Below are positions 48,336 to 51,518 of a stretch of 51,518 bases of DNA, piece by piece (within the stretch, counting starts at the first letter, position 1; every line of letters begins with the position of its first letter). The position numbers and the translations under genes were made by a program. The stretch spans positions 1 to 51,518 of the forward strand of contig JACZYA010000007.1 in assembly GCA_022571295.1 (NCBI GenBank). The letters run 5' to 3'. The notes beneath the pieces were generated by a model, which had not been told where the DNA came from, ran no database searches, and worked only from the letters and a program-made list of their open reading frames with translations. This DNA is from Acidobacteriota bacterium. Lineage in GTDB: Bacteria > Acidobacteriota > Terriglobia > Acidiferrales > 2-02-FULL-67-57.

Positions 48336-48367
48336 TTGACTCTATAGCCAGCTATAGGGTTTAGACT
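48336..48367 (+). promoter_or_regulatory. MerR-type promoter/operator
   Basis: -35 TTGACT (48336-48341) and -10 TAGACT (48362-48367) are separated by 20 bp, the over-long spacing typical of MerR-activated promoters. The spacer holds the dyad ACTCTATAG-CCAG-CTATAGGGT (48339-48360) with 8 of 9 arm positions paired. The start codon of merR (48374) lies about where transcription should begin, so the message is probably leaderless and the regulator controls its own operon. Confidence 0.85.
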
Positions 48368-48373
48368 GTAGGC

Positions 48374-48817
48374 ATGAGCGCGCGGCTCTTTATCGGCAAA
48401 GTCGCCCAGGCGGCCGGCCTGAGCGTGCAGGCGGTGCGCTACTACGAGCGGCTGGGGTTGCTGCCGCCCGCGGAGCGGACGGCGGGAGACTACCGCGCCT
48501 ATCGCCCCGAGGCGGTGGAGCGACTACGGTTCATCCGCCAGGCGCAGGCGGCGGGTTTTCGGCTGGAAGAAATCCGGGAGATTTTGCGGATGAAGTTTGC
48601 CGGGCAGTCGCCTTGCGAGTGCGTGCGCACGATGCTGCAACGGAAACTGGAAGAGGTGGAGGAGCAGATGGCGGCGCTGGGGCGCTTTCGGAAACAACTG
48701 CGGCGAACCTTGCAGCGAGCTCACTCATTGCCCCGCCTGCCACATCGGGCCAGCGCCATCTGTCCGATGATCGAAAGTATGCCTACGGTCGGAAACAAGG
48801 GAGGCAAGAAGCGATGA
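48374..48817 (+). CDS. MerR-family metal-responsive regulator
   Basis: MerR protein of 147 residues. The winged helix is standard (LFIGKVAQAAGLSVQAVRYYERLGLLPP), followed by the long dimerisation helix (EVEEQMAALGRFRKQLRRTL). Metal-site candidates are Cys81 and Cys83 (SPCECV), His117/His124 and Cys130 (AICPMIE). The first region and the late CPxI match mercury- and zinc-sensing MerR/ZntR proteins, but the cysteine usually found shortly before the CPxI segment is missing. It ends in TGA, and the same frame stays open to 48946. Confidence 0.92.
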   Translation: MSARLFIGKVAQAAGLSVQAVRYYERLGLLPPAERTAGDYRAYRPEAVERLRFIRQAQAAGFRLEEIREILRMKFAGQSPCECVRTMLQRKLEEVEEQMAALGRFRKQLRRTLQRAHSLPRLPHRASAICPMIESMPTVGNKGGKKR

Positions 48818-48901: not shown

Positions 48902-48946
48902 ATGTGTCCATTGTGTCCGTATTGCCCGGATGACGGCTGCTGCTAG
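48902..48946 (+). CDS. 14-residue cysteine-rich microprotein
   Basis: The frame encodes MCPLCPYCPDDGCC and stops at TAG: six cysteines in fourteen residues. AAAGGAGG at 48888-48895 stands 6 nt before the ATG, an ideal ribosome-binding site. Spaced CxxCxxC and a terminal Cys pair would bind a soft metal ion. It sits between the MerR regulator and the MerT-like selenoprotein, so it should be expressed with them. The frame is also in phase with merR across its TGA, leaving the alternative that it is a C-terminal extension of the regulator. Confidence 0.65.
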   Translation: MCPLCPYCPDDGCC

Positions 48947-49060: not shown

Positions 49061-49363
49061 ATGCGAGAAAAACCTTCCAGCGCGGTGAGCGTTCTGCTGG
49101 CGGTTCCCTGGTGTTGAGTGGCCCCGGCGCTGCTGTCCACGTTTGCGGTGGGTGGCGCCGCGGCGGCTCGGGGAGTCGTCGGCCAACTCTTGCCCTGGTT
49201 GTTTCTGGGCACGGTGGGCTTCCTCGCCTACGCGCACTATTTGGCTTGGGTGCGAGGGCACGGGCGCAGGGCAACCCGGTGGATTCTGGGAATCAACACA
49301 GTGATGGTAGTGTACTTCTGGTACGGGCGGGTGCGCTTTTGGGTCGAAGGCTGGTTGAGCTAG
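49061..49363 (+). CDS. MerT-like membrane selenoprotein (Cys-Sec pair)
   Basis: Translated with TGA (49115-49117) as selenocysteine, this is a 100-residue protein with three TM segments. The first contains PWCUVAP, with Cys18 and Sec19 at the place of the vicinal Cys-Cys in MerT helix 1 (ACCLGP type). The second is LLPWLFLGTVGFLAYAHYLAW, the third WILGINTVMVVYFWY. Read without Sec, the gene would need to start at a GTG directly after the TGA with no ribosome-binding site and half of helix 1 missing. GAAGGA precedes the ATG. It should carry Hg(II) or a similar ion across the inner membrane. Confidence 0.82.
49131..49157 (+). other. Candidate bacterial SECIS for the MerT-like UGA
   Basis: Stem CTGTCCAC (49133-49140) with GTGGGTGG (49148-49155), extendable by two pairs to 49131/49157, includes G-U pairs. 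The loop GTTTGCG has G first and begins 24 nt after the UGA. All three properties fit the bacterial SECIS pattern. Confidence 0.65.
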
Positions 49364-50184
49364 TTCTGCTGGCGGTGGTGCTCTGGCTGCCGGGCGCAGC
49401 GCAGGCGCAGATTGTGGCGCCGGGCGGGCGCACGCTGTTCAACCGGGCGGTGATGGTGCGCAGCTTCGTGCGCATCGACAACTTCGCCGAAGGCGTGCCG
49501 GGGGTGCGCGTGCGGCGCGTAGTCAATCCCTACGCGGTGGTCTGGGGCGCCTACCCGCATCTGAATTTGACTTTTGTAGCCCCGCTGGTGAGCGTGCAGA
49601 GCGACGCGCCCGGCCTGCCCGCGCGCAACTTCACCACCACCAGCTTCGGCGACGGGTTCATCTTTGCCCGCTACGACCTGCTGCGCAAGAACGTGCGCGG
49701 CGGATTCACCCGGCTCTCGCCCGAGATCGGCGTGAAGCTGCCCAGCGGGGGCGCCTTCGGCAGCGGCTCCACCGATCCCATCGCCGCGCTCATTTTCTCT
49801 CACGTGCGCGACCCGCATTGGTTCATCGCCGACGCCGAGTTCACCTACACCACCACCGGCGACGGCGGCCTGCGGCAGGGAAACCACTGGAACTACGACC
49901 TCGCTTACCTTTATCGTGTGCTGCCGCGCGGCGGGCTGGGCATCCCCGCCTTGTATTTGGTGCTGGAGATGAACGGCCAGCACATGCGCCGGGCGCGGCT
50001 GGGCGGGGCTAAGCTGCCCGACACCGGCGGCAATTTGGTTTTCTTGTCACCCGGAATCGAGTTCATGGCATCCAATCGGGTGGTGTTAGAATTCTCTTCG
50101 CCCATCCCGGTGGGGCGGGATTTGAACGGCTCGCAATTGAAGCCGACTTCCAGCTTCATCTTGGGGATTCGGTGGTTGTTTTGA
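49339..50184 (+). CDS. Outer-membrane beta-barrel transporter of the mer-like operon
   Basis: Protein of about 281 residues. From a TTG at 49339 it begins with a clear signal peptide (VELVLLAVVLWLPGAAQAQ) and continues as an all-beta barrel with alternating strands (LNLTFVAPLVSVQS, FGDGFIFARYDLL, LSPEIGVKLPSGGAFG) ending in IRWLF. It resembles the MetA/phenol-degradation type transporters (PF13557-like). The start overlaps the end of the MerT-like gene by 25 bp; other starts are possible because the frame is open from 48979. In context it should let the metal ion or its ligand through the outer membrane. Confidence 0.75.
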   Translation: MGRRLVELVLLAVVLWLPGAAQAQIVAPGGRTLFNRAVMVRSFVRIDNFAEGVPGVRVRRVVNPYAVVWGAYPHLNLTFVAPLVSVQSDAPGLPARNFTTTSFGDGFIFARYDLLRKNVRGGFTRLSPEIGVKLPSGGAFGSGSTDPIAALIFSHVRDPHWFIADAEFTYTTTGDGGLRQGNHWNYDLAYLYRVLPRGGLGIPALYLVLEMNGQHMRRARLGGAKLPDTGGNLVFLSPGIEFMASNRVVLEFSSPIPVGRDLNGSQLKPTSSFILGIRWLF

Positions 50185-51146
50185 TGAATCGGATAACGCT
50201 CAGCTTGGTGAGTCTGTCGGCTGTCCTGCTGGCGGCCTGCGCGCGCGAACCGGCGCCCCCGCCGGAGCCGGTCGGGGCGCACTACCATTTGCTGGCAGTG
50301 TGGGGTGAGTCCGGCCGGGAGCCGGGCCAGTTCGACGGCGTGCAGGGGTTGGTGGTGGATGCGCAGGGCCAGGTGTACGTGGCCGACGCGGAGAACTGCC
50401 GCGTGCAAGTCTTCACCAACGCAGGAGAATTTCTGCGCATGTGGGGCAAGTGCGGGGAGCGGCGGGGCGAGTTCCTCAAGCCGGTGGACGTGGCGGTGGG
50501 TCGCGGCGGCGAAGTGTTGGTGGTGGACTTCATGCTCGACCGGGTGCAGGTGTTCGACCGCGAAGGAAATTTCCTGCGCCAGTGGGGGCGCTCAGGGAAA
50601 CGCAACGGAGAGTTTTCCGCGCCGGTTGGTGTGGCAGTGGATTCCGAAGGGAACGTCTATGTGACTGACTTCTACAACCATCGCGTGCAGAAATTTTCTT
50701 CGCAGGGGAAGTTTCTGGCTGCGTGGGGGGTGGACGGCGGGGCCGAGGGCCAGTTGCATTACCCGGGGAAGTTGACGGTGGCCGCCGACGGAAATATCTA
50801 CGTGGCCGATGCGCACAACTACCGCGTGCAGAAGTTTGATTCCGAAGGGAAGTTCCTGGCAACGTGGGGAACTTCGGGCACTTGGCAGGGGCAGTTCCAG
50901 GACCCGACCGATCTGGTCGTGGACCGGAACGGAAACCTGCACGTGGCCGACAGCGGCAACTTCCGCGTGCAGTGGCTGGACGCGGAGGGGAACTACCTGG
51001 CGGAGTGGGCGGTGCCGGAAAGCGCCGGGCCCAAGTTCCAGTCTCCGCAGGCGCTGGCCCTGGATGCCGAGGGATTGCTGTACGTCAGCGACGCCGCCAA
51101 CAATCGCATCTATAAATTGGAGGCGGTGACAGGGAGGCAGGAATGA
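50184..51146 (+). CDS. NHL-repeat lipoprotein
   Basis: Lipoprotein of 320 residues. The signal ends in lipobox LAAC (about 15). The mature part is a six-bladed NHL propeller, each blade with the pattern GLVVDAQGQVYVADAENCRVQVF (for example at about 57, 104, 151, 198, 245, 292). Such propellers act as protein- or ligand-binding scaffolds. Its ATG shares one base with the stop of the barrel gene, and its stop overlaps the HMA gene (ATGA), so translation is coupled across the operon. A role in the metal system is inferred from position only. Confidence 0.88.
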   Translation: MNRITLSLVSLSAVLLAACAREPAPPPEPVGAHYHLLAVWGESGREPGQFDGVQGLVVDAQGQVYVADAENCRVQVFTNAGEFLRMWGKCGERRGEFLKPVDVAVGRGGEVLVVDFMLDRVQVFDREGNFLRQWGRSGKRNGEFSAPVGVAVDSEGNVYVTDFYNHRVQKFSSQGKFLAAWGVDGGAEGQLHYPGKLTVAADGNIYVADAHNYRVQKFDSEGKFLATWGTSGTWQGQFQDPTDLVVDRNGNLHVADSGNFRVQWLDAEGNYLAEWAVPESAGPKFQSPQALALDAEGLLYVSDAANNRIYKLEAVTGRQE

Positions 51147-51518
51147 ACAAACAAGTACGCCGGGCAATTTTTTCCATCGCGCTCTTGAGCGCTTTCGGGC
51201 TTGTGGCTGCGGCGCCGGCCGCGGCGCAGGTGGAAAGCGCGCGGGTGCGCGTTGACGGGATGTCTTGACCGCTTTGAGCCTACGGGGCAGAAAAAGCCCT
51301 GCGACGCCTGGATGGCGTCGGCCAAGTGAAGGTGGAGTTGAAGACCGGCCAAGCGGTCGTGCGGCCGGCGGAGGGAAAGAGCTTCGACCCGACACAGATT
51401 CCGCGGGCGATCAAGGACGCCGGTTTCGACGCGGGAGAAATTGAGCTGACCGCGGTCGGGACGCTGGGTAAGCAGGAAGATTTCTTACTGTTGGAGCTGT
51501 CCGGTGCGGTGCGCAAGT
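51143..51518 (+). CDS. MerP-like HMA-domain selenoprotein with Sec-x-x-Sec (partial, runs off window)
   Basis: With TGA read as selenocysteine, the visible 125 codons give a signal peptide (FSIALLSAFGLVAAAPAAAQ) and an HMA ferredoxin-like domain: RVRVDGMSUPLUAYGAEKAL, LDGVGQVKVELKTGQAVVRP, IPRAIKDAGFDAGEI. In MerP and copper chaperones the motif is GMxCxxC; here both Cys are TGA (Sec42 at 51266-51268, Sec45 at 51275-51277). Without Sec there is no usable start for the rest of the domain. AGGGAGG lies 5 bp before the ATG. The sequence continues past the domain (LGKQEDFLLLELSGAV) and is cut by the window end. Confidence 0.85.
51283..51320 (+). other. Two tandem SECIS-like hairpins for the HMA UGA codons
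   Basis: Hairpin 1: CGGGGC/GCCCTG (51283-51288, 51296-51301), loop AGAAAAA, loop start 21 nt after the first UGA. Hairpin 2: perfect 7-bp CGACGCC/GGCGTCG (51302-51308, 51314-51320), loop TGGAT, loop start 32 nt after the second UGA. Both loops have G in position 2. Each UGA thus has its own element within the 16-37 nt window. Confidence 0.7.

Follow-up and report, generated by a model that had tools for sequence, protein, structure and literature searches.

A candidate two-domain HMA selenoprotein with a Sec-x-x-Sec motif and tandem SECIS-like hairpins in a mer-like operon of an Acidobacteriota bacterium

Can both metal-ligand cysteines of an HMA domain be replaced by selenocysteine (Sec) and, if so, how are two such closely spaced UGA codons decoded and what might the resulting protein bind? 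These questions are raised by the end of contig JACZYA010000007.1 (assembly GCA_022571295.1) from an Acidobacteriota bacterium, the whole of which (51,518 nucleotides, ending at 51518) was analysed and is referred to here as the window.

The HMA gene, its two TGAs and their conservation

The HMA gene (51143-51518; this and all features below lie on the + strand) specifies an HMA domain preceded by a signal peptide; in-frame TGAs stand exactly in place of both cysteines of its GMxCxxC motif (GMS-U-PL-U). The first TGA (51266-51268) would specify Sec42 and the second (51275-51277) Sec45, the first and second metal ligands, respectively. Besides these two codons the frame is open up to 51518, where the contig ends and the 3' part of the gene is lost; full-length orthologues have 174-176 residues, so about 49 C-terminal residues are missing. 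The ATG overlaps the stop codon of the preceding gene (ATGA). TGA is a stop codon in translation table 11, and a plain table-11 list of open reading frames splits both the HMA gene and the MerT-like gene described below at their UGAs. The HMA product matches PF00403 with an E-value of 1.7e-12 and 48 bits, above the gathering score of 24.8. Its signal peptide, which an earlier note on this DNA had also proposed, was read from the sequence and appears as an N-terminal helix in the model of an orthologue.

The alignment-based AlphaFold prediction for that orthologue, a full-length one (pLDDT 90.6), shows an HMA domain whose best PDB match is MerP (1osd, TM 0.82 on the target), followed by a second, beta-rich C-terminal domain; our guess, from one weak match, is that this domain may be OB-like. 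The description of the protein as MerP-like, offered in the earlier note, stands as far as the nearest structure goes and in that the product is an exported HMA protein with a MerT-like partner encoded upstream. It does not extend to the curated MerP model (TIGR02052, 37.8 bits against a cut-off of 92.55), nor to the second domain. Similarly, the protein carries UxxU in its HMA loop and scores 38.8 bits against NF041115, for which the cut-off is 95. Three relatives score 37.6-43.9 bits under the same cut-off, which was reached in none of the 297 genomes sampled in this phylum. Membership in MerP or in NF041115 proper was rejected because the scores fall far below the curated cut-offs. Together with the score against NF045683 (30.3 bits, cut-off 375), these values indicate that the two-domain HMA proteins form a distinct, uncurated family.

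The host genome (98.6% complete) encodes the complete Sec machinery expected for a bacterial selenoprotein, namely selA (579.6 bits), selB (358.1 bits), selD (375.1 bits) and a tRNA-SeC with anticodon tca. The host selD is a selenoprotein gene itself, having an in-frame TGA at the usual Sec site (GUASK). Among 101 relatives, selA is present in every genome that bears a TGA form; this co-occurrence is weak evidence, since 91 of the 101 carry selA anyway.

When the 101 relatives were searched with the protein, exactly two TGAs were seen in 19 genomes, the window's own among them, and one TGA in several others; a profile search covering 399 class-level and 396 phylum-level genomes yielded many more homologues with two, one or no TGA. 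After removal of duplicates, 34 UxxU, 6 UxxC and 14 CxxC distinct proteins were counted, spread over a phylum. All 34 UxxU orthologues have both TGAs at the identical two positions and an intact frame beyond them, and the first TGA is also kept in the six UxxC proteins. The 14 CxxC proteins supply the cysteine homologues aligned at the UGAs by which selenoproteins are recognised (for example GMVCSFC); a protein scan of genome contigs found only one distant CxxC relative. The distribution of two-TGA, one-TGA and CxxC forms across a phylum excludes sequencing error and a pseudogene, and chance TGAs were rejected on the conservation of both codons in 34 distinct orthologues. Thus the earlier note was right in placing the TGAs exactly on the ligand cysteines of an otherwise intact frame (51266 and 51275, open to 51518) and in judging sequencing errors unlikely, and the Sec genes and Cys-x-x-Cys homologues that it had proposed to look for are present. 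A Sec-x-x-Sec motif in an HMA/MerP-type domain is supported, having survived all available tests; Sec would presumably be inserted in vivo at both UGAs.

In a maximum-likelihood tree the UxxU proteins cluster and need one change (range 1 to 3; support 63/80, with 66% of bootstrap trees in agreement), which points to one or a few old innovations. No single reversion of either Sec was seen within the UxxU group.

The UxxC proteins form a sister group with the first Sec only (GMDUxxC) and a single SECIS-like hairpin. Their genes adjoin that of the outer-membrane-type protein where examined (two loci), and in two genomes, G001 and G097, a gene for a Cys-Sec membrane protein lies on the same contig. 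Three other small HMA proteins of the phylum have one in-frame TGA and match NF041115 below its cut-off.

Tandem hairpins downstream of the UGAs

Two hairpins follow the second UGA in tandem. Hairpin 1 (51283-51301; CGGGGC-AGAAAAA-GCCCUG), a candidate SECIS for UGA1, has its loop 20 nt past the first UGA, and hairpin 2 (51302-51320; CGACGCC-UGGAU-GGCGUCG), a candidate SECIS for UGA2, has its loop 31 nt past the second. Folding of positions 51279-51320 gave a z of -4.35. An Rfam scan of the window returned a tRNA-Val only, and a scan of the host genome for SECIS_1 (RF00031) gave no match; control genomes also gave none, so the latter scan is uninformative. Published rules for bacterial SECIS elements specify a loop of 3-9 nt, a G in the first two loop positions, a distance of 16-37 nt from the UGA and an MFE of at most -7.5 (PMC13188914). 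Both UGAs of the window conform to these rules, UGA1 through the loop AGAAAAA at 20 nt (-9.0) and UGA2 through the loop UGGAU at 31 nt (-12.5).

The same layout was found throughout the UxxU genes, which have two tandem hairpins 3' of UGA2, the loop of hairpin 1 about 20-22 nt past UGA1 and that of hairpin 2 31-32 nt past UGA2, while the UxxC genes have a single hairpin with its loop 17 nt past their only UGA. At codons 1 and 2, respectively, the bSECIS rules are passed by 23/34 and 32/34 of the UxxU genes, 4/6 and 0/6 of the UxxC genes, and 0/14 and 1/14 of the CxxC genes; hairpin 1 accordingly fails the published rules in about one third of the UxxU members. In every UxxU member hairpin 2 combines a stem of 6-8 bp with a G in the loop; it is not conserved in the CxxC homologues. 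Its alignment contains 222 paired cells out of 231, compared with a mean of 211 when the 3' arm is shuffled, and none of 2000 shuffles scored as high. All UxxU members share the same Arg (CGC) and Gly (GGC) codons in this stem. Hairpin 1 shows a one-base register shift with compensatory changes between subgroups of UxxU members; covariation beyond shuffles was not found for it in the NF clade, because the stem there is nearly invariant.

Synonymous codon diversity is suppressed over codons +1 to +17 after the first Sec, both in the NF clade (0.18 against 0.47 elsewhere, p 3e-5) and in the other members (0.29 against 0.61 elsewhere, p 1e-3), and the suppressed stretch coincides exactly with the hairpins. 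Of the evidence for a selenoprotein, that from the RNA is the strongest.

One dedicated SECIS per UGA is the simplest reading, because hairpin 2 lies outside the published range for UGA1 and hairpin 1 is too close to UGA2. SelB and tRNA-Sec would read each UGA as Sec, using hairpin 1 for UGA1 and hairpin 2 for UGA2. Once UGA2 occupies the A site, the start of hairpin 1 would be about 5 nt downstream, inside the mRNA channel of the ribosome, and this hairpin should be melted; it could then serve UGA1 only, and hairpin 2 would have to act at UGA2. This arrangement of two hairpins with one SECIS for each UGA had been anticipated in the earlier note, and the rule-conforming loops, the folding score and the codon constraint bear it out.

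It is possible, if rather doubtful, that one element (hairpin 2, or both hairpins as a compound structure) serves both UGAs. Such sharing would fit the greater invariance of hairpin 2 and its more SECIS-like loops (AGUCU, AGGCU, UGGAU), the loops of hairpin 1 being variable. Nevertheless, the loop of hairpin 2 is 40-41 nt from UGA1, beyond the published 16-37 nt (PMC13188914), and in the UxxC relatives the lone hairpin is 17 nt away from the sole UGA.

The surrounding operon and the candidate metal

A putative MerR-type promoter (48336-48367), read from the sequence, lies upstream of a merR-family gene and consists of TTGACT (48336-48341), a 20-nt spacer with CTATAG-CCAG-CTATAG, and TAGACT (48362-48367); by analogy with MerR-family operators it is probably functional. 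The gene (48374-48817) encodes a 147-residue metal-responsive regulator of the MerR family (PF13411, E 6.7e-19), whose best NCBIfam MerR score (TIGR02051, 97.6 bits) is under the cut-off of 150.85. The operon that it heads is probably metal-inducible. A second selenoprotein gene follows (49061-49363, TGA at 49115-49117), encoding a MerT-like small membrane protein with a Cys-Sec pair (PWC-U-VAPALL) and weak similarity to merT_RC607 (E 2.8e-4 in the window, 5.5e-5 in relative G002). Both this gene and merR with its promoter had been missed in the earlier note. Next comes an outer-membrane-type protein (49339-50184, exact start uncertain), probably a beta-barrel and a conserved partner of the HMA gene, whose homologues adjoin that gene in relatives. 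Its AlphaFold model is poor (pLDDT 29.7, shallow alignment), and the basis for calling it a barrel is a match to PF13557 just below threshold (20.5 bits, cut-off 22). An NHL-repeat beta-propeller, likely a lipoprotein (50172-51146, ATG at 50184; PF01436, E 3.8e-46), overlaps the start of the HMA gene.

Between the merR-family gene and the MerT-like gene the window may also encode a 14-residue Cys-rich peptide, MCPLCPYCPDDGCC (48902-48946), which is preceded by a GGAGG ribosome-binding site and was judged from sequence alone. A secreted Cys-rich peptide, SFCPMKCCSGPADCPHPACCARK, occurs at the same place in G001 (L138, near 1893), and in the f3 genomes a larger exported protein rich in Cys occupies a similar position.

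In eight genomes, MerT-like proteins with Cys-Sec or Sec-Sec pairs are encoded on a contig that also carries an HMA homologue, and such genes in other genomes lie near Sec- or Cys-HMA genes. The gene order of the window recurs in G164, where the MerT-like protein is Sec-Sec and the carrier UxxU. This is one of three relatives with a Sec-Sec form (PWUU..P motifs; G164, G656 and G139), and consecutive in-frame TGATGA codons are displayed for the genes from G164 and G656. A MerA that exceeds the curated cut-off is encoded within about 4-9 kb of the module in G131 and G485. G131 has two copies of the MerT-CU, barrel and UxxU-HMA module, each near merA genes. Of the MerR, MerT/MerP and MerA that together make up a mer mercury-resistance operon, the genome of the window itself has MerR, MerT-like and MerP-like proteins; its best MerA score, 356.7, stays below the curated cut-off of 454.45.

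On this evidence we consider it likely that the gene encodes an exported two-domain carrier with two Sec metal ligands, each UGA having its own hairpin, which passes a soft metal to the MerT-like selenoprotein. The carrier, a MerP-like HMA domain joined to a small C-terminal domain, would be produced together with the outer-membrane-type protein and the MerT-like inner-membrane selenoprotein from the merR-headed, probably metal-inducible operon. Its periplasmic diselenol site would likely bind a metal ion of very soft character, with Hg(II) or a related species the most likely candidate, and the metal could then be handed to the Cys-Sec or Sec-Sec site of the MerT-like protein. From its chemistry, a diselenol would be expected to bind Hg(II) more tightly than a dithiol. 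The MerT-like partner and the MerA near the module in G131 and G485 make mercury the favoured metal; both the identity of the metal and the direction of transfer are inferred. Our broader proposal has chances somewhat short of even: a selenium-based mercury uptake relay, with diselenol and selenol ligands in carrier and transporter, two UGAs 9 nt apart each with its own SECIS, a TGATGA-encoded Sec-Sec transporter in some relatives, and Sec acting as a ligand and not as a redox catalyst.

A variant of the favoured explanation, which we regard as a minority possibility, is that the carrier serves another soft species (Cu(I), Ag(I), Cd(II), As(III) or organomercury) and owes its mer-like look to shared ancestry. 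The regulator scores nearly equally as MerR, CueR, CadR-PbrR and ZntR, CopZ-type HMA profiles score slightly above MerP for the carrier, and no MerA in the host genome reaches the curated cut-off; the MerT-like partner and the curated MerA close by in G131 and G485 speak against it. We hold it improbable that Sec-x-x-Sec serves primarily in redox chemistry as a diselenide/diselenol centre, acting for instance with a TlpA-like partner or to protect or reduce another periplasmic protein. Redox proteins make up the majority of known selenoproteins (PMC13188914), and in another group of relatives (several genomes) a TlpA-like thioredoxin gene instead lies directly downstream of the HMA gene, which leaves room for such a role. 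However, the fold is that of an HMA domain with MerP as its nearest solved structure, the neighbours include MerR and a MerT-like protein, joined in some relatives by MerA, and the visible part of the window operon contains no thioredoxin gene, the sequence past the HMA gene being beyond the contig end. That the TGAs are true stops in a truncated gene, pseudogene or assembly error, which one genome by itself could not exclude, is highly implausible and refuted in substance by the orthologues, the codon and RNA-structure constraint, the CxxC homologues and the complete Sec machinery.

If the carrier reading is correct, the locus is a conserved natural case of Sec as a paired soft-metal ligand, in a carrier as well as in its membrane partner. 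A Sec carrier beside a second Sec transport protein suggests a selenium-based capture route for toxic soft metals such as mercury. The tandem arrangement of UGAs and hairpins, with UxxC and CxxC genes as controls, also makes the decoding of closely spaced bacterial UGAs directly testable.

Comparison with known systems

UxxU HMA selenoproteins are already known, and the idea raised in the earlier note is not a new one: NF041115 (UxxU_metal_bind, metal-binding (seleno)protein) has been entered as a 'putative mercuric reductase' with UxxU and two Sec (PMC13188914). Like the window protein, it has Sec-x-x-Sec at the metal ligands of an HMA domain; it is, however, a single 74-position HMA model, whereas in the window protein an export signal and a second domain accompany the HMA domain. 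NF045683 (MerT_CopZ_Se, MerT/CopZ fusion-like heavy metal transport selenoprotein) likewise joins MerT-like and HMA parts but does so in one fused polypeptide, while the window divides Cys-Sec and Sec-x-x-Sec between two genes, which have other partners besides. The periplasmic mercury-binding protein MerP (TIGR02052) shares the exported HMA fold; classical MerP has CxxC, and the C-terminal domain of the window protein is extra. MerT (PF02411, NF033560) resembles the window MerT-like protein in being a small membrane protein with a vicinal pair in its first helix, encoded as the partner of an HMA carrier, but its pair is Cys-Cys and not Cys-Sec (Sec-Sec in relatives), and the similarity is weak (E 2.8e-4).

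Two Sec-MerP sequences have been reported from ocean metagenomes (PMC2398784), as has a Sec-containing putative mercuric transport protein with C/SxxU (PMC13188914), and a role of Sec as a metal ligand has been proposed only (PMC13188914, PMC2398784). Against the open-licence literature, what appears new here is the two-domain family and its breadth, the tandem SECIS elements, for which UxxC and CxxC genes act as natural controls, and the association with Cys-Sec/Sec-Sec MerT-like proteins in an operon headed by a MerR-family gene, part of which may be described elsewhere.
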